Positions 5,501 to 22,633 of a stretch of 64,000 nucleotides of DNA are shown here, piece after piece. Source of the DNA: Verrucomicrobium sp. BvORR106 (lineage in GTDB: Bacteria; Verrucomicrobiota; Verrucomicrobiia; Verrucomicrobiales; Verrucomicrobiaceae); NCBI RefSeq assembly GCF_000739655.1, contig NZ_BATR01000167.1:1-64000 (forward strand), given 5' to 3'. A model generated the notes under the pieces. It was given only the letters and a program-made list of their open reading frames with translations. It did not search any database and was not told where the DNA came from. A program made the translations under genes and the position numbers. How positions within the stretch are numbered: position 1 is the stretch's first letter; each line of letters starts with the position of its first letter.

Positions 5501-7072
5501 AACATACTATGCTTCAACGAAGCCGCTCTCTTGCGAGAGCGGAGACTGGACTGCACCGGCTCCCCATGCCGATCCATCAGCCGGCTTCAACGAAGCCGCT
5601 CTCTTGCGAGAGCGGAGACCGGTTCTGCTGCAGCGCCTGCAGAGCCGCCAGGCCACTGCTTCAACGAAGCCGCTCTCTTGCGAGAGCGGAGACTCATTGA
5701 TGCCGAGGGGCGGGAGCGCCTCATGGCCCTGCTTCAACGAAGCCGCTCTCTTGCGAGAGCGGAGACCAACCCTATGAAATCGCGCCCCTGCTCATTCATC
5801 CGCGCTTCAACGAAGCCGCTCTCTTGCGAGAGCGGAGACAACCGGGGGAGACCGCGAAGCATTTGCAGGCCCGCTGGCTTCAACGAAGCCGCTCTCTTGC
5901 GAGAGCGGAGACCTGGCATAATCCGACTGCCGTCTTTCTGGGGGATAGGCTTCAACGAAGCCGCTCTCTTGCGAGAGCGGAGACCACGGGCTTTGCTCTG
6001 GAGACCTTCCAGTTTGACCTGCTTCAACGAAGCCGCTCTCTTGCGAGAGCGGAGACTATTTGGTTTGTTTGAGTATGTGTTTCTGACTGAAACGCTTCAA
6101 CGAAGCCGCTCTCTTGCGAGAGCGGAGACCGAGCTCGACGAGCTTACGGCAGAGCGTCTTGAGATAGCTTCAACGAAGCCGCTCTCTTGCGAGAGCGGAG
6201 ACAGAAAAGAACGAGCAAGATTGTTTTCATGGCGGAAAGGCTTCAACGAAGCCGCTCTCTTGCGAGAGCGGAGACTGAGGCATCACGCTGCGGCCCTTGG
6301 TTCAATCTACGTGCTTCAACGAAGCCGCTCTCTTGCGAGAGCGGAGACCATCATTGCGCCCCACCGCTTCGGCTCATCCAATGAGCTTCAACGAAGCCGC
6401 TCTCTTGCGAGAGCGGAGACGGGAAACAGCTATGGCCAAGTGGCGGAGTGGGCGGGGCTTCAACGAAGCCGCTCTCTTGCGAGAGCGGAGACTCGCTGAA
6501 ATGCTTCACCGCCGCAGCTTTCGAATAGCTTCAACGAAGCCGCTCTCTTGCGAGAGCGGAGACCTTTGAATTTGGCCCACTCGCCAGCAGCCTCCGTGGC
6601 TTCAACGAAGCCGCTCTCTTGCGAGAGCGGAGACAGAGGCCTGCCGCGACGTAAGTCACGCTTACGAACTTGGCTTCAACGAAGCCGCTCTCTTGCGAGA
6701 GCGGAGACTATTAAAACGGCCCAGTCTGCGCGCCAGGCGGAAATTGCTTCAACGAAGCCGCTCTCTTGCGAGAGCGGAGACTTACTTGACCTCTGGGCGA
6801 ATCCCAGCGGCTTGGCTGGCTTCAACGAAGCCGCTCTCTTGCGAGAGCGGAGACTGAAATAACCTCCAAAGAAGTCAGGTCATCCAGATTGCTTCAACGA
6901 AGCCGCTCTCTTGCGAGAGCGGAGACCGGCATCGCGGATCTAGAGTCGTTGCTCGCTGCTGTGCTTCAACGAAGCCGCTCTCTTGCGAGAGCGGAGACAA
7001 CCCATTACTTGGAGGGATGTCATCAAGGATTACGCCGCTTCAACGAAGCCGCTCTCTTGCGAGAGCGGAGAC
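2584..7072 (-). CRISPR. CRISPR array, 62 repeats and 61 spacers, type I-G
   Basis: 62 copies of a 36-bp repeat occur with a period of 71-75 bp, giving 61 spacers of 35-39 nt. On the plus strand each repeat starts GCTTCAACGAAG, has the palindromic core CCGCTCTCTTGCGAGAGCGG and ends AGAC. Transcription is leftward, because cas2 and the probable leader lie at the right end and repeat decay is at the left: repeat 1 (2584) has CGG for CGA, and repeat 3 (2731) has GCCGAGAC. The crRNA 5' handle would then be GUUGAAGC. Repeats 6-13 (2953-3502) share one substitution, CTCTCGCGAGAG in place of CTCTTGCGAGAG, which makes the core a perfect palindrome. All spacers look different by eye. Confidence 0.98.
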
Positions 7073-7324: not shown

Positions 7325-7645
7325 TCACACCACGTAGCAGGGAGCGTCAAAGCGTGCGTAGGGCAGCCCCACCGACGCGATGACACGGTCTCCCCGGCCC
7401 TCACTGGGGCCCAGAGAGACAAACAACACCTGATCTTCATCGTGCTTGATCACATCTCTCAGTTCACGCTCCAGCCGGGTTCGCTCTCTCGGGTTCAGAT
7501 CACACTCGAAAACCGAGTACTGCAAATGGGTACCATGGTTCTTGCAGACCTTAAACACCTTTCTCAACCGCTTGTCGTCAGCGATGTCGTAGCACACCAG
7601 ATACGTGATCCGGCTGGAAATCACCGAGGCGGAATGACGGGACAT
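7325..7645 (-). CDS. cas2: CRISPR-associated protein Cas2
   Basis: A 106-residue Cas2. With Cas1 it forms the spacer-integration complex. The ferredoxin-like start ITYLVCYDIADDKRLRKV carries the conserved metal-binding Asp20, followed by the family pattern LQYSVFECDL. The length is close to the usual 90-110 residues. It is the last cas gene before the array and lies 88 bp downstream of cas4-cas1 on the same strand, so it is probably in the same transcript. Confidence 0.95.
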   Translation of the reverse strand: MSRHSASVISSRITYLVCYDIADDKRLRKVFKVCKNHGTHLQYSVFECDLNPRERTRLERELRDVIKHDEDQVLFVSLGPSEGRGDRVIASVGLPYARFDAPCYVV

Positions 7646-7733: not shown

Positions 7734-10328
7734 TTAGCGCGTCACCATCGGGATGTACTCCTTGATTTCCCCCGTCAGATACCGGGCCAGAATTCTCGCC
7801 TGCAGTTCCAGCACCCGCCGGTAGCTGACCTTGTAGTCGAACACCGGATGCGTGATGATGCTGCCCATGCGTTGTTCGTACGCTTGGAAGAACACCTTGC
7901 GTCCATGAGACGTGAGATTGACGCCCTCGCCTGCCCTCACGAAATGGTCCGGCACCAGCATGCGATTGTTAATGGCAGTGAGCACCACACTCTCTGCCAC
8001 TAGAGGGCGAAATTCCTCCATCAGATCCAGCGCCAGAGCCGGGCGGCCGTAGCGCGGCTGATGGTAAAAGCCCACATAGGGATCAAACCCCACCGCATGA
8101 GCCGCGATCGTGCAATCCTTGGCCAACAAACTGTAGGCCAGAGAGAGCAGCGCATTCACCGGGTCCGTGGGTGGACGCCGACTGCGCTTGGTAAAGTCAA
8201 AGGTGAAGACACTCTCCTCCGGTGCTCGCGTGGCAGAGGCTGACTCTAGCCCTGGGATCTCGTCATCATCATCCGCCGCCCCCACCTTGATCATCCCGGC
8301 AAAGTGCTGCAAGTACAATGCCGCCGCCGCGCCTTCAATGCCAAGCAGTTCCTCCAGAGACCTCGCCCCCAGCGCGTCCTGACTCGCCTGCTTCAGCCGG
8401 GCCAGCACGGCTGCCGGGGGCTCCACATGCAGCCGCATCAGCAGCGTCCTGTGATTGCGGATCTTTCCCGCTACAAATTTCCGCGATACCGCCAGGCAAC
8501 GCATTGGATCATCCGCAGCACGGAACTGCTCGATGCGTGTGAACACATTTTTCGTCGCATGACCACGCGTTAAACCATAGAACCACCCGCCGGTGGAGAA
8601 GTAGGCGAGCGGGATCTCCTTCTCGCACAGCACCTGCACCGCCTGGGTCGTCATCTGCACATTGCCGAAGAGCGCCACATGCGTCAGATCACTGAGGCGA
8701 AACTCTTCCACCACGGCGGCTCCGTCTTTCACCACCAGCAGTTCGCCGCTGCGCCCCACGTGATAACCGGGAGTGGACAGATACAACGCCCGCGCATCGT
8801 CCCGCGCCGCCATCAGTCGGCGGGGCGCCCCGTTGGCAGCGACTTGCTTTCCTGATCCCGCTTCGCCCGCGAGCTCCCCTTCAGGCAATCCTTCCTCCCT
8901 CTGTGGCTTCCGTTCAGCCAGCATCCAGGTCTCATCCGGCAGGCACACTGGTGCCAGCGAGCACCGCACACATTTGGGCGAGCCCACCAGTGGGGGCGGC
9001 ATCGGCCCACGGGCCGTCTCTCGCGCCAGGGCGATTTGAGCGATGATCCACCTCTCCAGCCCTTCGGTCATCGGCAGGCGCACCCGCTGTTTCGTCGCCC
9101 GGTAGTAGATCACCCCTTCCTCGCATTGGTAACCGTTGTCCCGCAGGATCAGAATCTGCAGCCCCAGCTGCATCTTGTCAGCATCCCACAGTTCGTTGGC
9201 GTCCGCCCCCTTCTTGGGGGCACCCGCCTTGTAGTCCACGGGCGTCACCGTTTTGATCTCCCGTGACTTGGCCCCTTTCTCACCTGTCACGGTCCCCATT
9301 CGGACCTCGATCAGATCCATCTTCGCCAGCACCCCCAGCCGCACTGAGCTCAGCGTGGCCGAGCGCGAGTGAATGATGCGATCCCCGTCCTTTTCTTCGA
9401 CAGCAGCCCCGGCCCCGCCGCCGTCCGGTTCGACCTCCACATTTTCTGATGTGGCATCAACTTGAGAAATCGCGCCCCCTTCATCAGGCACTTCGTCAGG
9501 ATCGGCCGCTGCCTTGGCCCCTTCAGCGAACCAATCCCCATCGTCACCTTCCTTCTCTGCGTTGGGCGCCCCCTTCTTCCCTCCTGCTGCTTTCTTTGCC
9601 TGCGGCAGATCACCTTTGCCTTTGTCCACCTTGGCATGCAGCGCACTGCCCCGCTCCGTGTCCGCGTTGGCCACAAACACACCCTCCACATACTCGTAGT
9701 AGAAGAGCCGGGGGCAATACACAAACTCATTGAGCATCCGCGAAGGCAACACCTCCTGCTGCGGCAGCGTCTCCGGGACATGGCCAGGGTCCACCTTTGC
9801 GACGACCTCCGAAAAGCGCAACCCATCAGGCTCAAACTCTTCTGGCGTCTCCGGCGATACCTTGTCACCCCTTGCCTCAAGGCCCTGCTCGGCAGCACCT
9901 TTCTCATCCAGCGGCCTCGGCACCTCCGCTTTCTGCTCCGCCGTGGTTTTCAGCGCAGGAGTTCCCCAATCCAACTCTTGCTGCTGCACTGCCAACCGCC
10001 GCGGAGCCGCCCGCAGAGGCCCCTGCACAGGCGGTGTCGCAACTGTATTCGGGTGTTGCCCAACTCCTTTTGCAGCCTCGTTGGTGACACCACCCTGCTC
10101 GACAGGAGCCGACACTGATTCCGATTTCGCTTCCTGTTCCGCCACGTCTGGCGCGGTCTGCACCGGCTCACCTTTCCCACCCCCACCTGAAAAGAGCTCC
10201 AGCTCTGGATGCCCGACAGGTGGTTGAGCCTCCGGCAACGGCAACAGAATCTCCGCGCCTTCCTCCCCTGTCGTCAGCGGAGCCGGCGCACGAGCAGTGC
10301 GAATGCGAGGTGGCGTGGGCGGGTCCAT
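7734..10328 (-). CDS. cas4-cas1: Cas4-Cas1 fusion protein with long disordered extensions
   Basis: An 864-residue fusion of the Cas4 nuclease (PAM selection and prespacer trimming) with the Cas1 integrase, the form usual in type I-G. The Cas4 part has the iron-sulfur cysteines Cys205 (EFVYCPRLFYY) and Cys453/456/462 (CVRCSLAPVC), and the nuclease motif VDYKAG near 365. Cas1 runs from about 503 to 864; likely metal ligands include the His in GFYHQ (about 754) and the Asp in ALDLMEEF (about 768). Two parts are unusual: residues 1-195 are Pro/Ala/Glu-rich and without domain character, and residues about 237-315, inside Cas4, are acidic and low-complexity. Typical fusions have about 550 residues. 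The start is uncertain: no clear ribosome site precedes it, and a later non-ATG start is possible. Confidence 0.92.
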   Translation of the reverse strand: MDPPTPPRIRTARAPAPLTTGEEGAEILLPLPEAQPPVGHPELELFSGGGGKGEPVQTAPDVAEQEAKSESVSAPVEQGGVTNEAAKGVGQHPNTVATPPVQGPLRAAPRRLAVQQQELDWGTPALKTTAEQKAEVPRPLDEKGAAEQGLEARGDKVSPETPEEFEPDGLRFSEVVAKVDPGHVPETLPQQEVLPSRMLNEFVYCPRLFYYEYVEGVFVANADTERGSALHAKVDKGKGDLPQAKKAAGGKKGAPNAEKEGDDGDWFAEGAKAAADPDEVPDEGGAISQVDATSENVEVEPDGGGAGAAVEEKDGDRIIHSRSATLSSVRLGVLAKMDLIEVRMGTVTGEKGAKSREIKTVTPVDYKAGAPKKGADANELWDADKMQLGLQILILRDNGYQCEEGVIYYRATKQRVRLPMTEGLERWIIAQIALARETARGPMPPPLVGSPKCVRCSLAPVCLPDETWMLAERKPQREEGLPEGELAGEAGSGKQVAANGAPRRLMAARDDARALYLSTPGYHVGRSGELLVVKDGAAVVEEFRLSDLTHVALFGNVQMTTQAVQVLCEKEIPLAYFSTGGWFYGLTRGHATKNVFTRIEQFRAADDPMRCLAVSRKFVAGKIRNHRTLLMRLHVEPPAAVLARLKQASQDALGARSLEELLGIEGAAAALYLQHFAGMIKVGAADDDDEIPGLESASATRAPEESVFTFDFTKRSRRPPTDPVNALLSLAYSLLAKDCTIAAHAVGFDPYVGFYHQPRYGRPALALDLMEEFRPLVAESVVLTAINNRMLVPDHFVRAGEGVNLTSHGRKVFFQAYEQRMGSIITHPVFDYKVSYRRVLELQARILARYLTGEIKEYIPMVTR

Positions 10329-10931: not shown

Positions 10932-10995
10932 GTAAGCGTGACGCCCAGTGCCTTATGATCTCGATAGCATCATAGATGTCGAGGTTTGAAAAGGT

Positions 10996-11370
10996 ATGAC
11001 GTCTATGAGTACGACGTCATTGGTTTTGAAGCAGGACGGGCTGGGGCGTGTGCGCACCCCGGTGACACGACGAGAGGCATTGCTCGCGGAGTTCGCCCGC
11101 AGCGGCCTGAGCGGGGCACGCTTTGCGACCCTGGCTGGCGTGAACTATCAAACCTTCATGGGCTGGGTGCACAAGCAAAACCGCCGCTCGGGCAGAACAG
11201 TGTCAGCCCAGCGACCGCCGCGCTTTGTTGAGGTGGAGGCAGCTCCTGCCCCGGAGCCGACGCTGCCGCTGATCATTGAGCTGGCCGCGGGCATCACCCT
11301 GCAACTGCACCATGCCAGTCAGGTGCCCCTGGCAGGTGAACTCCTGCGCAACCTCGCCCACCCATGTTGA
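10996..11370 (+). CDS. tnpA: IS66 accessory protein TnpA
   Basis: A 124-residue IS66 OrfA. The N-terminal half has a helix-turn-helix-like segment (RREALLAEFARSGLSGARFATLAGVNYQTFMGWV) typical of these DNA-binding accessory proteins. It is the first of the three transposition genes and overlaps the start of tnpB by 7 bp, so translation is probably coupled. Its start could be the first ATG (10996) or the ATG three codons later. Confidence 0.88.
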   Translation: MTSMSTTSLVLKQDGLGRVRTPVTRREALLAEFARSGLSGARFATLAGVNYQTFMGWVHKQNRRSGRTVSAQRPPRFVEVEAAPAPEPTLPLIIELAAGITLQLHHASQVPLAGELLRNLAHPC

Positions 11371-11732
11371 GCTTCACCGGCGGGCTCAAGATCTTCGTGG
11401 CCCTCGAACCCTGCGATATGCGCAAGGGCTTTGGCAGTCTCTGTGGGGCGGTGTACGACCATCTCAAAGAGGACGTGCGCAACGGGGCGCTCTATGTCTT
11501 TGCCAACAAGCGGCGTACCCGGCTCAAGATCCTCTACTGCGATGGCACCGGGATGTGGCTGCTGACCAAGCGGCTGGACGCTGGCACGTTCTTCTGGCCG
11601 CGCTCTTCCCAGGCGGGCCAGACCAAGATGGCCCTCACCCCGGAGATCTTTGCGCTGCTCACCGACGGCATCGACCTCCACCAGGCCAAGATGCGACCAT
11701 GGTACGAGCGCACCCCGGCGGTGCCGGCATAA
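11364..11732 (+). CDS. tnpB: IS66 accessory protein TnpB
   Basis: A 122-residue IS66 Orf2. The pattern LKIFVALEPCDMRKGFGSLCGAV near the start and FANKRRTRLKILYCDGTGMWLLTKRLDAGTF in the middle are family hallmarks. It is needed for IS66 transposition but its molecular role is not settled. It overlaps tnpA upstream; tnpC follows 56 bp later. Confidence 0.93.
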   Translation: MLSFTGGLKIFVALEPCDMRKGFGSLCGAVYDHLKEDVRNGALYVFANKRRTRLKILYCDGTGMWLLTKRLDAGTFFWPRSSQAGQTKMALTPEIFALLTDGIDLHQAKMRPWYERTPAVPA

Positions 11733-11788
11733 AAAGGAAACAACTCTTCTTGCAGCCCTGCGCGTCATGTTCATCATGGTGTCCCACC

Positions 11789-13342
11789 ATGATGAGCCCC
11801 CGCGAAGCCCAGCTGACCCAGGAGGTCAGTTTGTTGCGCGAGAAGACCCAGCTGCTTGAGCAGGAGAACAAGCTTCTGCGCGACAAGGTCGACGCCCTCA
11901 TCAAGCGGCTCTTTGGGGCCAGCAGCGAGAAGCTCGACGCCAACCAGCTGCTGTTGCTGCTGCAAGGGGATGACGGGCCAAAAAAAGCCGAAGCCTCCAG
12001 CGCAAGTTGCGCCGCCCTGGAGGCTGAACTGGCCAAACCCGCACCAGGCCATCCCAAGCCCAACAAGCCGCGCCGCGCTCCTCAGCCGCGGGTGCCCGAA
12101 CACCTGCCCGCCGTGGAAGAGGTGGTCGATCCTGTAGAGGTCACCAACAACCCGCAGGACTGGCGCTGCATTGGCCAGGAGGTCACCGAGCTGCTGGACT
12201 TTGAGCCGGGCCAGTTCCTGCGCCGCCGGTTGATCCGCCGCAAGTATGTCCGGCGCGATGCCGGCCATGAAGCACCTGTGATCGCTCCACTGAGCACGCT
12301 TCAAGAGCGCAGCATCGCGGCTCCTGGATTGCTGGCCCAGATCATCACGGCCAAGTACTGCGACCACCTGCCGCTGTACCGCCAGGAGCGCATCTACGCC
12401 ACGCGACACGGCGTGGAGCTGCCGCGCCAGAGCCTGTGCCGGTGGCTGAAGCTGGCGGTGGAGTGGTTGCAGCCGGTGTATGAGCAGATCAAGGCGGAGG
12501 TGCTGGCCACCGGTTATGTGCAGATGGACGAGACGCACATTGACTACCTGAGCCCCGGGCACGGGCGGACCAAGACCGGTCAGTTATGGGCCTGCGGCAA
12601 TCCACAGGGCGGAGTGTTTTACACCTGGCAGCTGGGCCGGGGGGCCGACTGTGTTGCCAACATCCTGCCGGTGAACTTTGGCGGGCACGTACAGAGCGAT
12701 GGCTACGCGGCCTATGGCAGCCATGTGGCGCAGAGTGAAGCGGCCATCACACTGCTGGGGTGCTGGGCCCATGCCCGTCGCTACTTTGTGGAGGCCAGAG
12801 ATGAAGCGCCGCAATACGCGGGACTGATCCTGCTGCAGATCCGTCATCTGTATGCGGTGGAAGCCAGGCTGCGGGAGCAGCGGGCCGGGCCGCGCCTGTG
12901 TGAGGTGGTGCGTCAGCAGGAGTCTGCACCCATCTTGGAGCGCCTCCACAGGATGATCGAAGTCATGAGCCGCAAGGCGCGCTTTACCCCCAAGAGCGCG
13001 ATGGGGCAGGCATTGACTTATGCACTCAACCAGTGGGAGCGCCTGGTGGTGTATGTGGAGGATGGCCGGCTGCAGATTGACAACAACCGCATCGAGAACG
13101 CGATGCGGCCTGCGGCATTGGGGCGCAAGAACTGGCTGTTCATTGGGGAGGCCGGGGCGGGGCAACTCACGGCGGTGTGCCTGACGATCATCGAGAACTG
13201 CCGCCGATGGGGGCTCAATTCGTTTGAGTACCTTCGCGACCTGCTGAGCCGGATGCCAACGATGACCAACCGTCAGATCAAGGACGTGACACCGGCCGCC
13301 GTGGCTGGGATGCTGGCCTGGCAACGGCCCATGGCCGCCTGA
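11789..13342 (+). CDS. tnpC: IS66 transposase TnpC
   Basis: A 517-residue DDE transposase. It has an N-terminal coiled coil (about 5-55, leucine- and glutamate-rich), then a basic and zinc-binding region, then the catalytic domain with the first Asp in the YVQMDETHIDYL segment, a later Asp in VQSDGYAAYG, and the Glu in DNNRIENAMRP. The C-terminal end has the usual IS66 tail (NSFEYLRDLLSRMP). The reading frame is open much further upstream; the ATG at 11789 gives the normal family length. The gene appears intact. Confidence 0.94.
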   Translation: MMSPREAQLTQEVSLLREKTQLLEQENKLLRDKVDALIKRLFGASSEKLDANQLLLLLQGDDGPKKAEASSASCAALEAELAKPAPGHPKPNKPRRAPQPRVPEHLPAVEEVVDPVEVTNNPQDWRCIGQEVTELLDFEPGQFLRRRLIRRKYVRRDAGHEAPVIAPLSTLQERSIAAPGLLAQIITAKYCDHLPLYRQERIYATRHGVELPRQSLCRWLKLAVEWLQPVYEQIKAEVLATGYVQMDETHIDYLSPGHGRTKTGQLWACGNPQGGVFYTWQLGRGADCVANILPVNFGGHVQSDGYAAYGSHVAQSEAAITLLGCWAHARRYFVEARDEAPQYAGLILLQIRHLYAVEARLREQRAGPRLCEVVRQQESAPILERLHRMIEVMSRKARFTPKSAMGQALTYALNQWERLVVYVEDGRLQIDNNRIENAMRPAALGRKNWLFIGEAGAGQLTAVCLTIIENCRRWGLNSFEYLRDLLSRMPTMTNRQIKDVTPAAVAGMLAWQRPMAA

Positions 13343-13710: not shown

Positions 13711-15360
13711 TCATCCCTCTAGTGGCACAAAAAGACCGAGACCAGCAAATTTGCCACTTCCAATACAGAAGGGCCCCTTGAGCTTGATAGGCTGAGCACT
13801 GCCCTCCAAGATGTGCTCACGCCAGCAGATGCGCACGTGCAAGCGGCGGAAGCGCCGGCAATGGTCCGGAACGGAGTATCTCGATGCAAGATCGACCCCT
13901 TGAACAAAGCCAGTATCGCGCCATTGCAACTCGGCATTGGCTACAAGAGGTGCAGGCAGACCGGAATCGAGTAGCGCTTTCCGCAATAGACGTTCTATCC
14001 GCACATCGAGTTTGCGAAGAATCTGTGCTTTTTCTTCAGCGGAGAGGGCTGGCGCTTCAGGGCGCAAGCGTTTACGCAACTGGCGCGGATCGTCGTGACC
14101 TGGAAGAACGACTGGAGTCACCGTCGCCCAGACTGCAGATTCCTTCGAAAAATAACTGTCTACCGCCCTGTCCTTTTCCGACTGACGCCGAAGAAAAGCA
14201 GCAGGAAGCTTACTCTTTTCATCAATGAGTTCGCGACCTTCCAGGACTCGGACAATACGTGAAAACTCAGAATTCGGGCAGAACCCTTGAACCGTCACCA
14301 ATACACGTCGGATCGCACCTGTTGTAAATCCACGTTCTTCTCCACGCCATTCGATTGAAGGAAGCGGCACAAAAACCAGTCGGGCAGAGTCCTGAGGGAC
14401 ATCGGAGTTTGTGGAACCACCTTTGTCATGCCCTAGGACGAAGGAGTCCACACGCTTCTTGTCCCACCCTAGAGCTGCGGCGAAGTCCGACTGGCTCGCT
14501 GTATGACGCAACATGCCCGCCAAATGCAAGCGACGCCATTGCGCGTCAAAGGAAGCATAGGTCCTGTCGTCAAGATTGCGCAGAGCCAAAATTGCATATG
14601 GAGGTCGAGCAATCTCTGTTTCACGCCGATAGGTTACCACGCGGAATTGCTCCAATGGGGGAACCGGGCTGAAGAATTGCTTCCCATCTCCGGTTGTCTG
14701 AAGTCTGCTTAGAAAGGCCGTGTGGCGTTCTTCTAATGCGGCGAATGTACCAGAAACGGGTACACGCAATGGAGAGCCACCAGATGTTTCAACAGGGAGC
14801 CAGCGTTCAAGGGAAGAGTCGATATGCGTTGACTCTTCAAAGGCGGCATCGACGACCACAAGATCAACTCCCCAACCGAGCCTCGAGGTAGCCTTGGCGA
14901 TGACAGCTATCGTTTCCCGGATTGAAGCTATGGAAGAGCTCTCGCCAAGCTTCCAGATGTAGTGGACTGCACAACTTCCCCTCAAAACTAAAGGGCGGAC
15001 TCTTTTCTCTGTACGGAACCCTGCAATGTCTATGGGGTGATTCTTGCTGTCGAAGTACTTACCATCTGACCACTGCTTCGCCACAAGATCTCCCACGTTG
15101 TCGGGAACGTAGAACTGGCAGCCAGTTGTTGGCGTGGCCTTGTCGGCGAATATTTCCGGTGGTTGCGTCAAGGCTTCAAACCAACGCAGGGCAGCGGCGT
15201 TTTGTTCTGCGATACCACTGCCATCTAGTCGAGCCGCTGCATTGGTGAGTGCTTGAAAGAGGCGCAGCGGCGAAGGTGGCCATTCAGACTCGCCGTTGTC
15301 GCTGCGACCATGGAATTCTCCGCCGAGAAAGTGGATGCTGATGCGGAAATATTCGGCCAT
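13711..15360 (-). CDS. csb2: Type I-G Csb2 (Cas5-Cas6 fusion, GSU0054 family)
   Basis: A 549-residue signature protein of type I-G. It serves as the backbone Cas5 subunit and, through its C-terminal Cas6-like half, as the crRNA-processing nuclease. The start MAEYFRISIHFLGGEFHGR followed by EWPPSPLRLFQAL is the family pattern. The C-terminal glycine-rich loop (CIGSGKFAGLGLF) matches the Cas6 G-loop. It starts 8 bp after the csb1 stop, so it is cotranscribed with csb1. Base composition appears lower in GC than the chromosome genes. Confidence 0.92.
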   Translation of the reverse strand: MAEYFRISIHFLGGEFHGRSDNGESEWPPSPLRLFQALTNAAARLDGSGIAEQNAAALRWFEALTQPPEIFADKATPTTGCQFYVPDNVGDLVAKQWSDGKYFDSKNHPIDIAGFRTEKRVRPLVLRGSCAVHYIWKLGESSSIASIRETIAVIAKATSRLGWGVDLVVVDAAFEESTHIDSSLERWLPVETSGGSPLRVPVSGTFAALEERHTAFLSRLQTTGDGKQFFSPVPPLEQFRVVTYRRETEIARPPYAILALRNLDDRTYASFDAQWRRLHLAGMLRHTASQSDFAAALGWDKKRVDSFVLGHDKGGSTNSDVPQDSARLVFVPLPSIEWRGEERGFTTGAIRRVLVTVQGFCPNSEFSRIVRVLEGRELIDEKSKLPAAFLRRQSEKDRAVDSYFSKESAVWATVTPVVLPGHDDPRQLRKRLRPEAPALSAEEKAQILRKLDVRIERLLRKALLDSGLPAPLVANAELQWRDTGFVQGVDLASRYSVPDHCRRFRRLHVRICWREHILEGSAQPIKLKGPFCIGSGKFAGLGLFVPLEG

Positions 15361-15368
15361 GATAAGGT

Positions 15369-16571
15369 TTAAGCGGAGAGTGTCGCTTCGGCGAAGGTTT
15401 CTGAGTCGGAAGCCGCTTCAGTTCCTGGCCCTTTTTTCCCCTTCTTTGCGGCCTTAGCCGCTTTGGCAGCAGCTTTACCCGCGAGGTCGTCTCTGGCCAC
15501 CGAAGGTTCAAAATCGACTGCTTTACCCTTCCATCCCCCTAAGGTGCTCTTTTCTTCGTCCTTCAGATCGACTCCTGCCCAAAATGCCCTTGTTGCCACT
15601 CGAGCGTATTCAAGCGCGTCGGCATGAGTGACAGCGACATTCGTGCGGTTGCCGTCTGCTGAGACCTCTTGGAACAAATGCTCTCCGTCCTCCTTTTTCA
15701 CCAGAATCGTGCCTTGGCGGAGATATCCCCCAGGAAGTTTGGTAAATGCAACCAAGGCTAGACCGAGAATGTAGCGACGGAGTTTTTTTGTCTCCACCTC
15801 GTTGACAGAGGAAAGTAACCGCAATGCAGAAAGCGCTAGTGTGGCGTCCCGTCGGATGCCTTTTTCACCTGCAATCACACCGCCGTGGGTAGCAGTCGCA
15901 GGAACATGCGTGAATCCTGAAGTAGAGCGTTCTTTCTTGTCCTTCTCATCCTTGATAGGACCAAGTACCCGTTCGTCGTCATACACAGTCACGGGATCTG
16001 CGCTGCCACCGGCCCAATATTGCGCCGAACGCGTGAGTTGTTTCACGTCGTACGCTCGGATGGTGGAAGAGAGGAGTCGCGGCGCTTTGGCCTGAGTGTC
16101 ACGAGAGTCCCAAACTCCGAACACGAGCGAAGTAGGCGCTATTCTAGCAAGAGATCCAGCATCACCCTTCAGCAGGGCCTTGAACGCGGCTTGCAACTCC
16201 GCCTGCAATGACGAGCAGCGCACAATAGCGTCCCCCGCACGATGTCCCGCATCAAGGAGATTAATCTCCTTTTCCCCAGCTTTGATGATAATCTGTGGCA
16301 CAAGCCCAGCATAGTCATCAAGCTTGAACAGCGGCTCTATCCGGTTGGATTGGGATCCAATGCTGTCAACGAGAACAACATTCGTCCCGTCAGAGAAGCC
16401 ATTAATGTTGTATCCACCTTTGAAAGTCTTGTCCTCGGAGGCTGCGTAGGTCGCCGGGAAGAAAACGGCGTCGGCGCCCTCCACGGGGACGAGTTGTTCG
16501 CGAACAACCAGAGCAGCCGGGCCGTCAACAGCAAGATAGTTGTCAAACCTTTTCAGAATGTTGTCACTCAT
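15369..16571 (-). CDS. csb1: Type I-G Csb1 (Cas7 family, GSU0053)
   Basis: A 400-residue Cas7-type backbone protein that would coat the crRNA in the surveillance complex. Recognisable stretches are the N-terminal FPATYAASEDKTFKGGYNIN region and the central FGVWDSRDTQAKAPRLLSS and RSAQYW segments typical of the family. The C-terminus is rich in Ala and Lys. The start is the ATG of MSDNILKRF, 47 bp after the end of cas3-csb3. An upstream in-frame start would overlap the previous gene and is not preferred. Confidence 0.92.
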   Translation of the reverse strand: MSDNILKRFDNYLAVDGPAALVVREQLVPVEGADAVFFPATYAASEDKTFKGGYNINGFSDGTNVVLVDSIGSQSNRIEPLFKLDDYAGLVPQIIIKAGEKEINLLDAGHRAGDAIVRCSSLQAELQAAFKALLKGDAGSLARIAPTSLVFGVWDSRDTQAKAPRLLSSTIRAYDVKQLTRSAQYWAGGSADPVTVYDDERVLGPIKDEKDKKERSTSGFTHVPATATHGGVIAGEKGIRRDATLALSALRLLSSVNEVETKKLRRYILGLALVAFTKLPGGYLRQGTILVKKEDGEHLFQEVSADGNRTNVAVTHADALEYARVATRAFWAGVDLKDEEKSTLGGWKGKAVDFEPSVARDDLAGKAAAKAAKAAKKGKKGPGTEAASDSETFAEATLSA

Positions 16572-16618
16572 AGTCTTAGTTAATAAGGTTATTTTCGGTA
16601 GATGTGCAAAATAACAGT

Positions 16619-19600
16619 TTATTTGTTCGAAATGGCTCGAGCATTGAGGAAAGCTTTGTGTTTCCGTTGCCCCGTCCGAAACCAACTTTCGAAACGGAAG
16701 CCATGGCTATGACTATCGGGCAGGACACCGTTGATGGCTCCGGACACGAGTGAAACGGGAAGCGGATGGGTCCAAACGTGATAATCGAAATTTCGCTGTA
16801 TGTTTGGCACGGGCGCAGGAATAGCGCGCTGAAGACCAACGAGCGTGAGCAACTCTACGGCTGGAGAAGCTAGGGTTTCCAGCTTCAGATCATTTGCTGC
16901 AAAACCGACGTCACGCGAATGTGCGTTAGGTCCGCGATTGGAATCGAAGTAAAACGGCTCCACCTTGTTCGCAAGATTCGCAGGATCATAGGCAATGCGA
17001 GAGTCGAAGAGCAACCTCTCGTGATCGAAATCGGCGGCAAAACAACCACCCTTAACCGCAGCCTGCATAGCGCGGGCAATACGAGGCCCTTCCATCGTAC
17101 CTGCCCAAACCTTGAGTGCAGCGGTGTTTCGATCAGCCGTTTTCCACCAATCAAGGCGAACATTAAAAGGCGCTTCAACCATAAGCGCCGAGGCAGTGGC
17201 ATCGTCCGGATCAAGCGCGTTGATTTCAGCCTTCACAACTTTTTCAAGGAGGTCGGCAATGGTTGTTGTATTGGCCAGATGAAACCTCCATCCGCCTGTA
17301 GCGATAAGTTGTTGAAACCATCCAACCGAATTGGGTGACAAGCGGGCAGCAAGCTCCAAAAGACCGCAACAGGCAAAGTAATGACCAGGATTGGTCGGAT
17401 TTACATCAAGAGTGATCGTTGGATTGGTTTCAGGCCGAACTTGCGTCGCTGGAGTTTGGCGGGGGAAAGGGCTAGTCTCAGGACTGCCTTGGGCTACAAT
17501 GCCTGCACTGGCAGCGTAGTCTGCAGCACGGAGCAGAGATTCAAGCCAGGCAAGCCCCCAACGTCCGAAGCGGCACTGCAACCGGGCGAAACGGCGTGGA
17601 ACATCTGTCGCAAGAGTAAGGATGCTCTCGCGTGTGACTTTATCGGAGCTGTCGAAAATCTCGGCTTCGGGAAAGTGTGGTCTAGCACGCCCGTGGTGGG
17701 CGGCTACTAGATGCAGGACGATGTCGCGCTCAACATCATTGAGCGAGGTGAAATCGGCGGAGTTGGTGACGTCGCTGAGCGAACCAAACTCATGTCGGTA
17801 ATGCTCGGCAACTGTGCGGGCATTCATCCCTGGAGATGATTTCGCAAGAATAGTCTCCTGCTTGCCAGGGTCATATTTTACGTTGCCAATGTTGCGTTGC
17901 CATGAGGCCCGGTTTTTCCCCAGATCGTGCAAGCGTGCGGCGATGGTCAGCAGCTTCGCGAGATCTGGCGGTAGGAGCTTCTTGGCGATTGCGGTCGCAT
18001 TGGCTTCGACAGATGCAGTGTGCGACGCAAGCGTTTCCGGTTGATTGTTCTGGGTAAAACGGCGCTCTTCACTGGCAACGTTTCTAGTTTCGAGCCAAAC
18101 CCAGTAACGACTAGAAGCTGTGTCATCACCGCCTTCTACGGCGACCAGTTTGTCGATAGTGCGAACGAGACGGAAACCAGCAGGCACCTCAGGCGATAAG
18201 GTCCATTCACGCTTGCGCTTACACACCGCGTCATCTGACACAATATCGGCCACATCAGTTTCACCTGCTGCAGCACCAGAGGCACCTGGTGAGAGCATAC
18301 CATTTTTGTCAATGCCACCGAGTGACGCAGGAAGGATGAGAGTGGCGTCGCCCAGGCGCGAAACAGCACGTTTCCTCTGTGCCTCTTCCACTTTTTTGTC
18401 ATCGCTAGCACTTGCAGACTCCACCTCCTCGCCAGCTTCCTCCATATCATCATCTGCTTCCTGATCAGAGAACAACTGAGTCAGCGGAAACAACTCCACT
18501 TCGCCGTCCGCGCCCACAAGCCAAGCATCAGGCAGAGATGCATTGCCTTTCATCCGTTCCGACACAATATTTATGAGCTGATCAATAATCCGATCAGTGG
18601 AATCACGCAGAAGTTCGTGTGGTTTGAGAGGAAAATCTTCGAGGAGCTCCGCAGGAGGGTAGGCAGCGCGAAGCTGCGGTGTAGTGATCACATCAAGTTC
18701 CTCACGCCATGCGAGGTATGTTTCCGCAGGCTGCCACTCGGCGACGCCATGAAGATAGGGTGCGATTGGCGGGCGAGCCGAAATGTATTTACGTATGGAG
18801 GTAGAAGCCCATGCGTCGAACTGAACGTCGGTAGCGAAACGCAACGTGGGCAGAGGAGAAAACGCCGCAACACGGTCGTCTACAGGCAGTAAGTCAAGGG
18901 CGGCGGGGCTTGCGTTGCCGTGAAGCTTTCTCAGAACGTCTAACGTCCTGATGAAACGGAGAATACTCAGGTTTTTCTGCTGATAGGCGGCGACTTTTTT
19001 GTCCGCATCTTTTTTTGCAGCCTTGGCTTTCTCCAGCCCCTCATCGTAGCCGGTTTGAAGGTTCTCGCGATAGACAACGGAAATTTCGCTGTCACTACGC
19101 TCGCCAAAACGGTTCACACGACCAAAACGCTGGGCCATGCTTTCGTAAGTGGAAAGATCACAAACAAGGTCGTCAGCAGAGAGATTCACGCCAACCTCGC
19201 CTGCGCTTGTAGCAACAAGATAAACGGTGCCAGTAGCTGCTTCAACATCAGCGGCACGACTTGAATCAGGCAGAAACCGTTGAAACACAGCGTTACGAGA
19301 CACGAGCTCGTCACGTTCCCTGCCACGCATCGTGCCCGTGAGTGCGGCTACAGCTTGTTTTGCTTTCTCGAGGCCACTGACAATTTTCCCTACAGCCTCC
19401 ACTGAACGAGCAAAGATGAGCACAGCACGGTAGCTGTCGCGCTTTGCCAAGGCAAGTTCGAGGATCTTGTCACGTACGGAGCCATCATTTGACTTGTCCT
19501 TGCCGCCATCGACCCTGGTAACGGAGACAAGGGCAAGCCGCTTAACGGCGTTGAGCCGCTTTTTGACGGTGTCGTTGTCTGTATCCTTGTCGTTTGGATC

Positions 19601-20329
19601 CTCATCCAACCTAAACGGCTTTACATCACTCTCTAAATGAGCGCTACGACTGGTCGCAGTGAGTTCGATGACACGCAGTCCGCGAAAGTCCGCGTTGCGC
19701 CTCTGCTCAGTAACAATTGCGTCGAGCAGCGTCTGGAATGCGGGCTCCAAGTGAGCTTCGTCATGGACGACCAGTGCATCTTGAGCCAGGAAGCCGGCAT
19801 GAAGAGGCCGTGTTTTGAAGCCTCGTGTGTATCGACTGAAGAGGAGACCGCTTCCGATCATGTCCACGGTACCGACAATAATGGCCGGTCGGCTCGGATC
19901 GGCGCACCACTCACCATTATCGGCAAACTGGCCTCGCAAAGTGCTAATAGCGAGCGGAGGCGCATCGAGCGTCGGAAGCGGAAGCGCACACAACGATGCA
20001 AGCGATTGGCGCACTTCAGCGAGAGCAGGTTTGATCAACTCCTTGCGAAGTCGTACAACTTCCTCCGTCGTTTGATCAACCACGGTGCGACGGTTAACGA
20101 CATAAACAAGCCGTCGCGACACCCGGTCAGGATGGGTAGCCAAGGCGATAAGCCAGATAGCGACTATGGATGTCTTCCCGAGACCGGTGGGGATATTGGC
20201 CACCTTGGGTATCTCTCCACGAACGAACAATTCGTAGAGCGCCCGTTGCCATGGAAATGGCTCCACCCCAGCGAGATGGAAGAAGAGTTTGGAAAAGTCT
20301 GTTGAGACCATAGAACTCGGTACTTGCAT
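16619..20329 (-). CDS. cas3-csb3: Cas3 helicase-nuclease fused to Csb3
   Basis: A 1236-residue protein. The helicase part has Walker A NIPTGLGKTS (about 46-55), DEAH (about 189-192), motif SAGEVGVNLS and QRFGRVNRFG (about 400-409). The HD nuclease domain follows it, as in type I-G: LHDLGKN near 800 and HLVAAHHGRARP after it. From about 970 to the end (VNPTNPGHYFACCGLLELAARL onward) the protein resembles Csb3, the small effector subunit normally encoded by a separate gene between cas3 and csb1. No csx17 is present. An AGGAG 10 bases before the ATG supports this start over an internal Met at codon 7. It is first in the operon; the likely promoter lies at about 20430-20470. Confidence 0.9.
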   Translation of the reverse strand: MQVPSSMVSTDFSKLFFHLAGVEPFPWQRALYELFVRGEIPKVANIPTGLGKTSIVAIWLIALATHPDRVSRRLVYVVNRRTVVDQTTEEVVRLRKELIKPALAEVRQSLASLCALPLPTLDAPPLAISTLRGQFADNGEWCADPSRPAIIVGTVDMIGSGLLFSRYTRGFKTRPLHAGFLAQDALVVHDEAHLEPAFQTLLDAIVTEQRRNADFRGLRVIELTATSRSAHLESDVKPFRLDEDPNDKDTDNDTVKKRLNAVKRLALVSVTRVDGGKDKSNDGSVRDKILELALAKRDSYRAVLIFARSVEAVGKIVSGLEKAKQAVAALTGTMRGRERDELVSRNAVFQRFLPDSSRAADVEAATGTVYLVATSAGEVGVNLSADDLVCDLSTYESMAQRFGRVNRFGERSDSEISVVYRENLQTGYDEGLEKAKAAKKDADKKVAAYQQKNLSILRFIRTLDVLRKLHGNASPAALDLLPVDDRVAAFSPLPTLRFATDVQFDAWASTSIRKYISARPPIAPYLHGVAEWQPAETYLAWREELDVITTPQLRAAYPPAELLEDFPLKPHELLRDSTDRIIDQLINIVSERMKGNASLPDAWLVGADGEVELFPLTQLFSDQEADDDMEEAGEEVESASASDDKKVEEAQRKRAVSRLGDATLILPASLGGIDKNGMLSPGASGAAAGETDVADIVSDDAVCKRKREWTLSPEVPAGFRLVRTIDKLVAVEGGDDTASSRYWVWLETRNVASEERRFTQNNQPETLASHTASVEANATAIAKKLLPPDLAKLLTIAARLHDLGKNRASWQRNIGNVKYDPGKQETILAKSSPGMNARTVAEHYRHEFGSLSDVTNSADFTSLNDVERDIVLHLVAAHHGRARPHFPEAEIFDSSDKVTRESILTLATDVPRRFARLQCRFGRWGLAWLESLLRAADYAASAGIVAQGSPETSPFPRQTPATQVRPETNPTITLDVNPTNPGHYFACCGLLELAARLSPNSVGWFQQLIATGGWRFHLANTTTIADLLEKVVKAEINALDPDDATASALMVEAPFNVRLDWWKTADRNTAALKVWAGTMEGPRIARAMQAAVKGGCFAADFDHERLLFDSRIAYDPANLANKVEPFYFDSNRGPNAHSRDVGFAANDLKLETLASPAVELLTLVGLQRAIPAPVPNIQRNFDYHVWTHPLPVSLVSGAINGVLPDSHSHGFRFESWFRTGQRKHKAFLNARAISNK

Positions 20330-20426
20330 TTGTTGAAGACTCCTGGTGCAGAGCAGGCGTCTCCCTAGCGGGTGCGGGTCAATGTCTTCTTCATAACGCG
20401 ATCAGCTCAAAAAGATTTCATTTACT

Positions 20427-20447
20427 TTCCGTATATCTGAAAGCAGG
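20427..20447 (+). promoter_or_regulatory. Candidate target (TTC PAM + protospacer) of the degenerate guide at the cas3 promoter
   Basis: TTC at 20427-20429 is followed by CGTATATCTGAAAGCAGG, which matches the first 18 bases of the pseudo-spacer at 20490 except at position 6. TTN is the PAM reported for type I-G systems. The site lies about 100-118 bp before the cas3 start and overlaps a minus-strand -10-like TATACG. It could instead be one half of a 60-bp-spaced direct repeat. Confidence 0.4.
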
Positions 20448-20453
20448 ATAGCG

Positions 20454-20561
20454 GCATTCCTCACTCTTGAGTCGAGGTACCATTGAAGCCGTATGTCTGA
20501 AAGCAGGTGGCACTCGCATGAAAAAACTTCCGCACTCGAAAGAGTGCGGACCCTTTTTATC
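20454..20561 (+). ncRNA. Candidate degenerate mini-CRISPR / Cas-regulating guide RNA
   Basis: Pseudo-repeat 1 (20454-20489, 36 nt) has a hairpin core (CCTCACTC..GAGTCGAGG) and ends ATTGAAGC, one base different from the array crRNA handle GTTGAAGC. A 36-nt pseudo-spacer follows (20490-20525). Pseudo-repeat 2 (20526-20561) has 18/21 identity to the repeat core at 20529-20549 and runs into a T tract, so it could also act as a terminator. Repeat length, spacer length and the 72-bp period all fit the array. It would be read divergently from cas3. The same bases can be read as a two-copy dispersed repeat, so transcription needs proof. Confidence 0.4.
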
Positions 20562-20888
20562 CCGACATGAAGGCAAACAGGCATCGAAGGGCCCAGCCCC
20601 TGAATTCCAACCTGCATAGTCGAATGCCGGAGCTACTGCTTGGCTACTCTCGTGATCGAGACTCGCTCGGCCCCAATCTCTGCACCGAAAGGCAGAAGCA
20701 CGCTCCACTGGCGGTTGCGACCATCGACGCTCATATGCAGGTCCATGGTTCCAGGAACCAGTGGAGCCTTCAGTGGATCGATGAGGACGAAATCCAGGCC
20801 CATCTGATTGATCGCAATTGTCCTCTCCGAGGTGACCAACTCCATCGTCACTACGGAAGAATGACCTGCTGGAGAAATTCGGGCGACC

Positions 20889-21395
20889 ATGGATGATGAA
20901 TTGATTCGAAGGACGGAGTTGTACCTCGCCAGGAATGGCATGCACATCACCGATGAATTGGGTGATGGCCTCCATGGTATCGTTCTTCTGGTGGAAGACA
21001 ATCTGAATGGTGGCACGGCGGCGCTGAAGGTCCACCGTTATGCAGAGGCCTACGAGCGAGAAGTCCTGGTTTACAGACACTTTGAGGAGAGTCGAATCCT
21101 CAAAATTCGCGGACACAATGTGCCCCTGATGCTTCGATATTCCAATGAGCTCCTGGCCATAGAAATGACCACGGTAAGGCGACCGTTCCTTCTGGACTTT
21201 GCAGGTGCCTACCTTGACGGTGACGAACCTCAATTCACCCCTGAAGCATGGGATCAGTGGGAAGAGGACAAGAAAGAGATGTTCGGTGAAAATTGGGCAG
21301 CCACCAAAAAAATCCTCCAAAGCCTGCGAGCACACGGAGTTCACATGATCGATGTCAACCCCGGCAACATTGGGTTTGAAATGGAGGATCGCTGA
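20889..21395 (+). CDS. Minimal protein-kinase-like protein
   Basis: 168 residues with a pared-down kinase fold: a glycine-rich loop (LGDGLHGIV), a Lys in AALKVHRY, a Glu in AYEREVLVY, and a catalytic-loop-like HMIDVNPGNIGF. It ends just after that loop, so there is no DFG-type segment or C-lobe. It may be an unusually small kinase, a pseudokinase or a truncated aminoglycoside-phosphotransferase-like protein. It is divergent from cas3 and followed by a WYL regulator. GC looks low compared with the chromosome. A longer antisense frame over the same bases is not coding in character. Confidence 0.65.
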   Translation: MDDELIRRTELYLARNGMHITDELGDGLHGIVLLVEDNLNGGTAALKVHRYAEAYEREVLVYRHFEESRILKIRGHNVPLMLRYSNELLAIEMTTVRRPFLLDFAGAYLDGDEPQFTPEAWDQWEEDKKEMFGENWAATKKILQSLRAHGVHMIDVNPGNIGFEMEDR

Positions 21396-21486
21396 CATAC
21401 CTCGTTCAAATGAAGCTCAGATTCTACGGCTTAACAAGTTTATCGACTAAATTTTCTGGTTGAGTCAACAAAAAAGCCAGACAACC

Positions 21487-21714
21487 TCACTCCTCCATCC
21501 AAAAAAGCTGCCCACAGTGAACTGGTTCCACGATTGCAGTTCGGCTGACTCGACGATCAGAGAGGTGTGACAGCTCACTCATAGGAATCCCCATTGGCAC
21601 TGGCCCAGGCATCGGAAGACACCCATTGCCAACATTAATTAAGACATGTAAACTATCTCCACTCCCTCGTAAAAGAGGTCGTGAGTCGTCCCTTTCTATT
21701 CCAGACAGTTTCAC
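21487..21714 (-). CDS. Possible small protein of unknown function
   Basis: 75 codons from a GTG, ending GQLFWMEE. The internal stretch PVPMGIPMSELSHLSDRRVSRTA has amino-acid use like a real protein, but no family was recognised and it could be a C-terminal gene remnant. It is divergent from the WYL gene. A TTGACA with a TAGAAA 17 bp later lies over its own start on the same strand, which argues against this exact start. The rest of 21396-21733 holds only the WYL promoter candidate. Confidence 0.25.
   Translation of the reverse strand: MKLSGIERDDSRPLLRGSGDSLHVLINVGNGCLPMPGPVPMGIPMSELSHLSDRRVSRTAIVEPVHCGQLFWMEE
21626..21654 (+). promoter_or_regulatory. Candidate sigma70-type promoter of the WYL regulator gene
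   Basis: TTGCCA (21626-21631) and TAAACT (21649-21654) are separated by 17 bp, about 80 bp before the ATG at 21734. This placement favours the later start codon for the WYL gene. Confidence 0.35.
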
Positions 21715-21733
21715 TTGTCAATCGTTTTTAACG

Positions 21734-22633
21734 ATGGGTAACAATACCAACCCTTCCCAATGGGCCGCTCTGGAGCGGCTCCGATTCATCGAGCGCAGCG
21801 CGTGGTGGCGGGGCATGGTGAACCGGAATGACTTGCAGCAGGTGTATGGCGTCTCCCAGGCCCAGGCATCGGCGGATCTGCAAAAGTACCTGGAGCTCAA
21901 TCCCACGGCGCTCAACTACAGCCTGAAGCGCAAGCGTTACGAGGGCGCGCCGGGCATGAAATGCGTGCTGCACCGGCCTCAGCTTGAGGAAGCGCTCAGC
22001 CAGTTCCTCGAACCCGCCGCACCAGGAGGGGCAGGTGGCTGGGGCGGCTCTTTATCGGGAGGGGCACTCGATTCCTCCGCCTCAGTCGCCGAAACCGAGA
22101 CCCACCCCGGAACGCGAGTGGCGGGGGTGGGCCTGCCTCAACGGACCGCACAACCGGCAGTGCAACGCGCCATCTTTCTGGCCAGCTTGCAGGAGCTGCG
22201 CGTGCGGATCCACTACCTCTCCCTCACCCAGCGCCGGCCCGGCTGGCGCTGGATCACCCCTCATGCCTTTGCCCATGACGGCTACCGCTGGCACGTCAGA
22301 GCGTGGTGCGAGGAAAACAAAGCGTACCGCGACTTTGTGCTGGGTCGGATCAAGGAAACCGAGTGGCCCACCCTGCCGGCGGGGCGGCTGGAACCCGATG
22401 CGGAGTGGCACTCATGGCTCACGCTGGACCTGGTGCCCAACCCGGCACTCTCCAAGGAACAGCAAGAGGCCGTGAAGGCGGACTACGATCTCAAATCCGG
22501 GCGGATGACGCTGCAAGTACGGCAGGCGATGCTGGAATACACCCTGGCTCATCTGCGACTTCCCTCCCAGAATGGGAAAAAGTCGGCTCCATTCTTGGTG
22601 CAGCATAACAAAGAAGCAGAACAGAACCACTGA
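21734..22633 (+). CDS. WYL-domain transcriptional regulator
   Basis: 299 residues from the MGNNTNPSQW start. Residues about 10-75 form a winged-helix-like DNA-binding segment (LRFIERSAWWRGMVNRNDLQQVYGVSQAQASADLQKYL). A WYL domain follows (about 150-225: RVRIHYLSLTQ, WRWITPHAFAHDGYRWHVRAWCEENKAYRDFVLGRI), and then a C-terminal extension. WYL regulators often control CRISPR-Cas and other defence loci, probably by sensing nucleic-acid ligands. Its position beside the cas locus suggests, but does not prove, that it regulates it. A start at 21626 is possible but lies upstream of the likely transcription start. Confidence 0.85.
   Translation: MGNNTNPSQWAALERLRFIERSAWWRGMVNRNDLQQVYGVSQAQASADLQKYLELNPTALNYSLKRKRYEGAPGMKCVLHRPQLEEALSQFLEPAAPGGAGGWGGSLSGGALDSSASVAETETHPGTRVAGVGLPQRTAQPAVQRAIFLASLQELRVRIHYLSLTQRRPGWRWITPHAFAHDGYRWHVRAWCEENKAYRDFVLGRIKETEWPTLPAGRLEPDAEWHSWLTLDLVPNPALSKEQQEAVKADYDLKSGRMTLQVRQAMLEYTLAHLRLPSQNGKKSAPFLVQHNKEAEQNH

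Follow-up and report, generated by a model that had tools for sequence, protein, structure and literature searches.

A candidate CreR-type guide RNA upstream of cas3 in a type I-G CRISPR-Cas locus

In the window (the whole stretch of DNA analysed here, 64,000 nucleotides), one degenerate mini-CRISPR is located at 20454-20561 (+), outside the CRISPR array and near the cas genes; its layout is 36-36-36. Does this unit encode a guide RNA that regulates the neighbouring cas genes? An earlier note, made from the letters of the sequence, had inferred an autorepressor guide of CreR/CreA-like kind for this type I-G operon, and guide-target pairs in 11 other I-G loci lend support to that idea. We favour the account of a CreR-type mini-CRISPR of type I-G, whose guide would load Cascade and repress cas3-csb1-csb2 without cutting; judged from sequence, we consider this very likely.

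The type I-G locus and the mini-CRISPR unit of the window

The CRISPR-Cas system of the window is of type I-G. Csb1, Csb2, Cas3g, Cas8g and the Cas4/Cas1 fusion all score above their family cut-offs, the cas reading frames are open, and all the type I-G genes are on the minus strand. The features of the locus and of the unit are:

2584-7072, minus strand: CRISPR array, 61 intact-core repeats from 2658 and one degenerate repeat at 2584
7325-7645, minus strand: probable cas2, an open reading frame recognised by eye alone
7734-10328, minus strand: cas4g/cas1g fusion (NF049935)
13711-15360, minus strand: csb2 (Cas5-Cas6; TIGR02165), the predicted processing enzyme
15369-16685, minus strand: csb1/cas7g (TIGR02570)
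16619-20329, minus strand: cas3g fused to cas8g2 (TIGR02621 and TIGR04106 above cut-off)
20427-20429, plus strand: PAM of the target, TTC; TTN is the I-G PAM in the consulted part of PMC9638904
20430-20447, plus strand: target, 17/18 to guide bases 1-18, mismatch at 6
20454-20489, plus strand: pseudo-repeat 1, 14/36 compared to the array repeat; hairpin at 20459-20477, then TACC, then the handle
20482-20489, plus strand: predicted 8-nt 5' handle ATTGAAGC, 7/8 compared to the window's own array
20490-20525, plus strand: guide (pseudo-spacer), 36 nt; bases 1-18 (20490-20507) pair with the target
20526-20561, plus strand: pseudo-repeat 2, 23/36 compared to the array repeat, core 18/21
20529-20558, plus strand: terminator-like hairpin and T tract within pseudo-repeat 2, terminator-like on both strands

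The fused cas3g-cas8g2 gene is presumed to be the first gene of its operon, and the operon is presumed to be the target of repression. The start codon of csb1 is uncertain; the family match (TIGR02570) starts only at residue 57. Transposase genes (IS66-like by eye) are located at 10986-13342, between cas4/cas1 and csb2, possibly splitting the adaptation genes from the effector operon. The 61 repeats of the array are spaced by 71-75 nt, and one perfect 12-bp hairpin is located at 2514-2541, immediately beyond the distal end. BLAST of the array against a phage collection gave four records, all with E values of at least 1, so its spacers yielded no PAM for this array. One open reading frame at 20418-21398 (-), which spans the unit, has no match in Pfam or NCBIfam and was treated as spurious. 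A kinase-like open frame (20889-21395, recognised by eye, no Pfam match) adjoins the unit. Another open frame, nine codons in length and also seen by eye, lies between the target and cas3 (20329-20430); it may be a leader peptide or nothing.

The 36-nt pseudo-repeat with its handle, the 36-nt pseudo-spacer and the second pseudo-repeat keeping 18/21 of the repeat core, all described previously, were confirmed base by base. The handle of the window array is GTTGAAGC, which ATTGAAGC of pseudo-repeat 1 matches at seven of eight positions; ATTGAAGC is identical (8/8) to the commonest I-G handle of the other loci, whose array repeats end mostly in ATTGAAGC or GTTGAAGC. Pseudo-repeat 2 contains TCCGCACTCGAAAGAGTGCGG, which matches 18/21 of the repeat core and is followed by the T tract CCCTTTTT. 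The spacing from pseudo-repeat 1 to pseudo-repeat 2 is 72 bp. The earlier note had matched this period to the 71-75 of the array; the spacing holds, but it rests on register and not on repeat identity, because pseudo-repeat 1 keeps only 14/36.

What remains in pseudo-repeat 1 is the handle and the hairpin, which in the predicted fold ends exactly 4 nt 5' of the handle. On its own, the hairpin has unremarkable stability (z -0.82; 31/200 shuffles are equally stable); the entire 113-nt unit is unusually stable (z -2.38; 3/200). Cleavage by Csb2 is uncertain, because pseudo-repeat 1 is so diverged and its hairpin is no stabler than shuffles. Searching Rfam at E ≤ 1 over 20300-20700 gave no match.

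Guide bases 1-18 are the same as 20430-20447 except at position 6, and TTC stands in front of that site; this earlier observation proved exact at every base. Beyond guide base 18 the pairing ends, as 2/18 of the following bases match. The target lies 101-118 bp upstream of the cas3 start. When handle, TTN and match were scanned together, the score at the unit was 16.5; among 1000 dinucleotide shuffles of the 1030-bp region, four reached 9 and the maximum was 12.

The genome search with the 18-mer and the hairpin, which had been proposed as a check, excluded the many copies that would speak against a guide. Below three mismatches, the 8.69-Mb genome contains only two copies of the 18-mer, those of the guide and the target; at exactly three mismatches there are four more sites, compared to five for a reversed-pattern control. 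The pseudo-repeat-2 hairpin (up to 2 mismatches) was found at two sites only, in the unit and at 2517-2538 past the array end, where the perfect 12-bp hairpin contains it, and the single genomic match of the 241-bp unit region is the region itself. We therefore rejected a tandem dispersed repeat, since the 18-mer, the hairpin and the 241-bp region have no further genomic spread. With bases 6 and 12 left free, TTN-preceded sites occur at 14 places, namely the target, the guide and 12 others; one of the 12 has two mismatches and eleven have three, and the reversed-pattern control gave seven. A wider regulon beyond the cas3-upstream target is not claimed. In the intergenic region of the window, neither strand showed a sigma-70 consensus. 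In some other loci, the target overlaps weak to good promoter-like sequences.

Guide-target pairs upstream of cas3 in other type I-G loci

In a first comparison of 10 relatives and the window, the pattern was observed in the window only. Then 80 named loci were added (the best 80 of 183), and the pattern appeared. Searches by phylum added further loci (at most 30 each, among the matches listed), together with 13 stretches. In all, 195 loci (designated by L numbers) were used; cas3 was located in 192 of them, the exceptions being L200, L201 and L034. After duplicates and regions under 180 nt were dropped, 172 distinct cas3-upstream regions of up to 4 kb were left, of which 154 extend over at least ∼1400 nt and 167 over at least ∼400 nt. 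Phylum labels follow the record titles or the group in which the search was made.

Whole-locus scans with the handle TTGAAGC gave 19 rows with TT, compared to 4, 10 and 14 rows with AA, GG and CC, respectively; two other handles with TT gave 19 and 1 rows. These raw match numbers do not discriminate, but some of the TT rows are distinct in position and form. The TT rows of L036, L065, L078, L079, L083, L108 (20345), L114 and L120 are without a fitting handle or second repeat and were rejected as chance. PAM-free scanning of the 172 cas3-upstream regions gave 51 matches, 14 preceded by TT and at most five by any other dinucleotide. Thirteen of the 14 TT matches fall in 12 loci (the window, L057, L066, L089, L091, L093, L103, L108, L110, L146, L158 and L170), with L103 contributing two units; the remaining one, in L079, was judged to be chance. 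The L091 unit at -327 brings the total to 14 units in 12 loci. When TT was required and 1.4 kb was used, 10/172 regions scored at least 9, all of them at least 12; in the 516 shuffled regions of the control, one scored at least 9 and none at least 10. With a relaxed handle and a required hairpin, TT was found in 11 of 22 matches (GG next, 3).

Units outside arrays were also selected by structure; required were an exact handle, a guide of 36 nt and a repeat-like hairpin. The first hairpin filter was too narrow; it gave six units, four of which were retained later and two of which came from an L196 array. The widened filter gave 15 exact-handle units outside arrays, and restriction to repeat-like hairpins left 10 units at nine loci. 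For each unit, plain 18-nt matches within 400 bp were scored and the best was taken, with PAM and periodicity unused. This best match is preceded by TT in 10/10 units with no ties (chance 1/16 each; 9e-13) and all 10 units are divergent from cas3; the hairpin filter was fixed after target-based examples, so eight of the 10 are not independent. The two newly found units (L146 and L091 -327) also have the TT PAM and the 6-periodic mismatches. In the five units removed by the filter (L051, L091 -2028, L153, L168 and L228), TT precedes none of the nine tied best matches. Match count alone was equalled by shuffled guides in 5/100 cases for L146, 4/100 for L108, 3/100 for L110 and 32/100 for L091 (-327); for these four candidate pairs, the case is carried by the PAM and the mismatch pattern.

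The mismatches are strongly periodic. Across the 10 structure-selected units, they occupy 22 of 30 cells at positions 6, 12 and 18 and 12 of 150 cells elsewhere, the cells being treated as independent. Positions 6 and 12 are mismatched in eight units each, 18 in six, 9 and 15 in four each, 11 in two, 8 and 14 in one each, and the other positions from 1 to 18 in none. Among the 13 distinct pairs, positions 1-5, 7, 10, 13 and 16 match in 13/13, whereas positions 6 and 12 match in 2/13 and position 18 in 5/13, three of the 13 (L103, L158 and L170) having been found with scoring that is more forgiving at each sixth base; past 18, the pairing fades. Positions 9 and 15 are mismatched in 9/26 cases, compared to 5/104 at the remaining positions between 7 and 17 that are not sixth bases. 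This post hoc observation hints at loose reading of the third base in Cas7 segments two and three.

Comparison of cas3-upstream regions in relatives, as the earlier note had advised, revealed, in 11 other I-G loci, unrelated guide-target pairs to which the same rules apply. Guides and targets differ from locus to locus; common to the loci are the handle, the 36-nt guide, the hairpin repeat, the TTN PAM, mismatches mostly at 6, 12 and 18, the divergent orientation and a target placed between unit and cas3. All 14 units run divergently from cas3. The distance from target to cas3 is at most 118 bp in the window, L066 and L091 (-327), and it reaches 3.4 kb, with other genes intervening, for the second unit of L091. 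For the far units, the regulated gene would be the neighbour of the target. The two units of L091, at -327 and -3554 from cas3, have different guides and targets, and the second target precedes an NYN-domain gene. L103 has tandem units with handles near 2275 and 2349; their guides share the first 28 nt and have one common target.

Units were found in 4/24 Verrucomicrobiota, 8/73 Planctomycetota and 0/75 other regions (12/172 overall). On the Cas3 tree (FastTree, 171 rows; long-branch joins flagged), the 12 positive loci need 11 changes; the mean for shuffled labels is 11.7, and 123 of 500 shuffles were as low. Because the positives are scattered as shuffled labels are, and because guides and targets vary among loci, the distribution suggests gain and loss of the units and not steady inheritance. 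No unit was found in L078, L055 and L053, which are near in Cas3. In Cas3, L078 is the most similar to the window (69% identity); it lacks the unit and has a similar kinase-like neighbour near cas3 (by eye). In L055, whose Cas3 is 86% identical to that of L057, another gene, recognised by eye, occupies the position of the L057 unit, within the 738 bp of upstream sequence covered.

Proposed mechanism and rival explanations

We infer transcription, processing, loading, promoter position, repression and purpose as follows. One short RNA, consisting of pseudo-repeat 1, the 36-nt guide and pseudo-repeat 2, would be transcribed rightward (+), divergent from the cas operon; the hairpin of pseudo-repeat 2 probably also terminates the transcript. 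For type I-G, the consulted part of PMC9638904 reports a TTN PAM, a cut 4 nt past the hairpin base, an 8-nt handle and a flipped sixth base. A Csb2 cut 4 nt beyond the hairpin of pseudo-repeat 1 would leave AUUGAAGC as the 8-nt handle; the 5' end of the small RNA is predicted to read AUUGAAGCCGUAUG (AUUGAAGCCGUAUGUCUG). The processed guide would be loaded by the I-G Cascade (Csb1, Csb2 and Cas8g), and the complex would recognise TTC and 18 bp upstream of cas3, equal to three 6-nt Cas7 segments. The unmatched position 6 would be the flipped sixth base of the first segment. Since pairing involves only about half of the guide, binding is not expected to trigger destruction by Cas3; transcription of cas3-csb1-csb2 would be blocked, and the supply of effector would be set by feedback. 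The purpose may be to cap Cascade until competition by crRNAs or anti-CRISPRs lifts the cap, which is how reviews portray CreR.

Given the divergent arrangement, the promoter of the guide itself may also be targeted. It is possible, though on balance unlikely, that the same guide RNA acts mainly on its own promoter, or on the two divergent promoters together, making it a homeostat of guide and cas. In 13/13 distinct pairs, the target is flanked by the handle and cas3 and so lies upstream of where the guide itself starts. In L091, the entire target falls within TTGACA-17-TATCAT, a site in the creR direction; TTGACT-16-TAGTAT, in the cas direction, overlaps the target too. However, the intergenic region of the window showed no consensus promoter in either direction, and one L091 target (that of the "second unit"), 305 nt away from its handle, occupies the bases 5-22 bp ahead of cas3, which fits control of cas.

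It is improbable that the unit is the CreA antitoxin guide of a CreTA module, in which the repressed transcript would be a small toxic RNA and not cas3. CreA, as described in the consulted part of PMC9458426, also has two degenerate repeats, the first of which is more diverged, and a partial match; the nine-codon frame seen by eye would suit such a module as well. However, no terminator-like site was found in the ∼100 bp between the target and cas3, so any transcript would enter cas3. No creT toxin gene was recognised, the nine-codon frame and cas3 being what lies downstream in the window, though sequence alone may miss an RNA toxin. The genes downstream of other units are sigma-like, WYL, HNH or NYN, with no toxin family named.

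Still less probable are two explanations that dispense with a working guide RNA. In one of them, the two copies are protein operators (of a WYL regulator, for example) beside an ordinary bidirectional terminator that resembles a repeat. An 18-bp direct repeat is a common form of operator, one WYL-domain gene is present in the window at 21626-22633, and the hairpin is terminator-like on both strands; but operators predict neither TT at one copy only nor mismatches at 6, 12 and 18, and the handle, the hairpin-handle distance, the 36-nt guide, the PAM and the periodicity coincide here and are seen again in 11 other loci, where the sequences are unrelated. The other, equally doubtful, is that of a decayed orphan array with a once chromosome-targeting and now functionless spacer: it would agree with the degenerate repeats and the patchy distribution (12 loci, with about as many changes on the Cas3 tree as shuffled labels give), but decay should leave random mismatches in place of the invariant and free positions of the 13 pairs, and pseudo-repeat 1 retains the handle that the RNA needs, pseudo-repeat 2 the hairpin.

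Relation to known systems and wider reading

By predicted anatomy and target, the unit is of the CreR kind. The primary CreR paper is that of Liu et al. 2023 in Cell Host Microbe; the literature searched, which did not cover that paper, contained no CreR in type I-G and no mention of CreR or CreTA together with 'type I-U'. CreR (cas-regulating RNA) is reported in types I-B, I-E and V-A (PMC13131331) and in type I and V-A broadly (PMC12737573), and it is also described in PMC12948488, as far as the consulted parts of these sources go. Like CreR in those parts, the unit is a cas-linked mini-CRISPR, and its guide is complementary to a limited extent to the DNA in front of cas; no toxin gene is evident, and autorepression of Cas is expected (here it is predicted). 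Different from CreR, the effector here is of type I-G, all 14 units are divergent from cas3, and pseudo-repeat 2 of the window ends in a T-tract terminator-like site.

The long-form tracrRNA of S. pyogenes Cas9 is likewise a guide of partial complementarity that makes an effector a repressor. To our knowledge, the long-form tracrRNA and scaRNA belong to class 2 Cas9 systems and are without a repeat-guide-repeat unit of the present kind. In the scaRNA of Francisella Cas9, as given in the consulted part of PMC9458426, a guide of partial complementarity also turns a cleaving effector into a repressor. CreA, in the parts of PMC9458426 and PMC8501985 that we drew on, shares with the unit two degenerate repeats around a pseudo-spacer, the first repeat being more diverged, a partial match to a promoter region and the use of the linked type I effector. 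However, CreA represses a toxin RNA in these sources, whereas here cas3 lies downstream of the target and no toxin was recognised.

If the CreR-type reading is true, RNA-guided autorepression of Cas would extend to type I-G. The natural guide-target pairs would be ready guides that are expected to bind without cutting, together with a tolerance map resolved to single bases. According to the consulted part of PMC9638904, Cas5 does not hold the 5' handle in the I-G effector, and how this effector reads the PAM is an open question. The reading also suggests that an I-G locus moved without its upstream region could lose its own brake.

We hold a broader reading only tentatively. In the I-G systems of Verrucomicrobiota and Planctomycetota, autoregulatory guides with one strict code may have been repeatedly gained and lost, and the guides may record non-destructive binding; in several planctomycetes, the target would stand before a small sigma-like gene that precedes cas3. 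The code would consist of TTN and ∼18 paired bases, equal to three Cas7 segments, with positions 1-5 perfect, 6, 12 and 18 free, and 9 and 15 relaxed too. One small protein with a sigma-70 region-4-like domain is the first gene past the target in L108 (7973-8521), L110 (1242-1850) and L093 (9284-9733); the domain scores above the Pfam cut-off in these three loci and is weak in L158 and L089. It is possible that the sigma-like gene is a cas activator under control of the guide. If so, the planctomycete effector would control not only itself but also a possible activator. In L108, a WYL regulator is located further along from the sigma-like gene.
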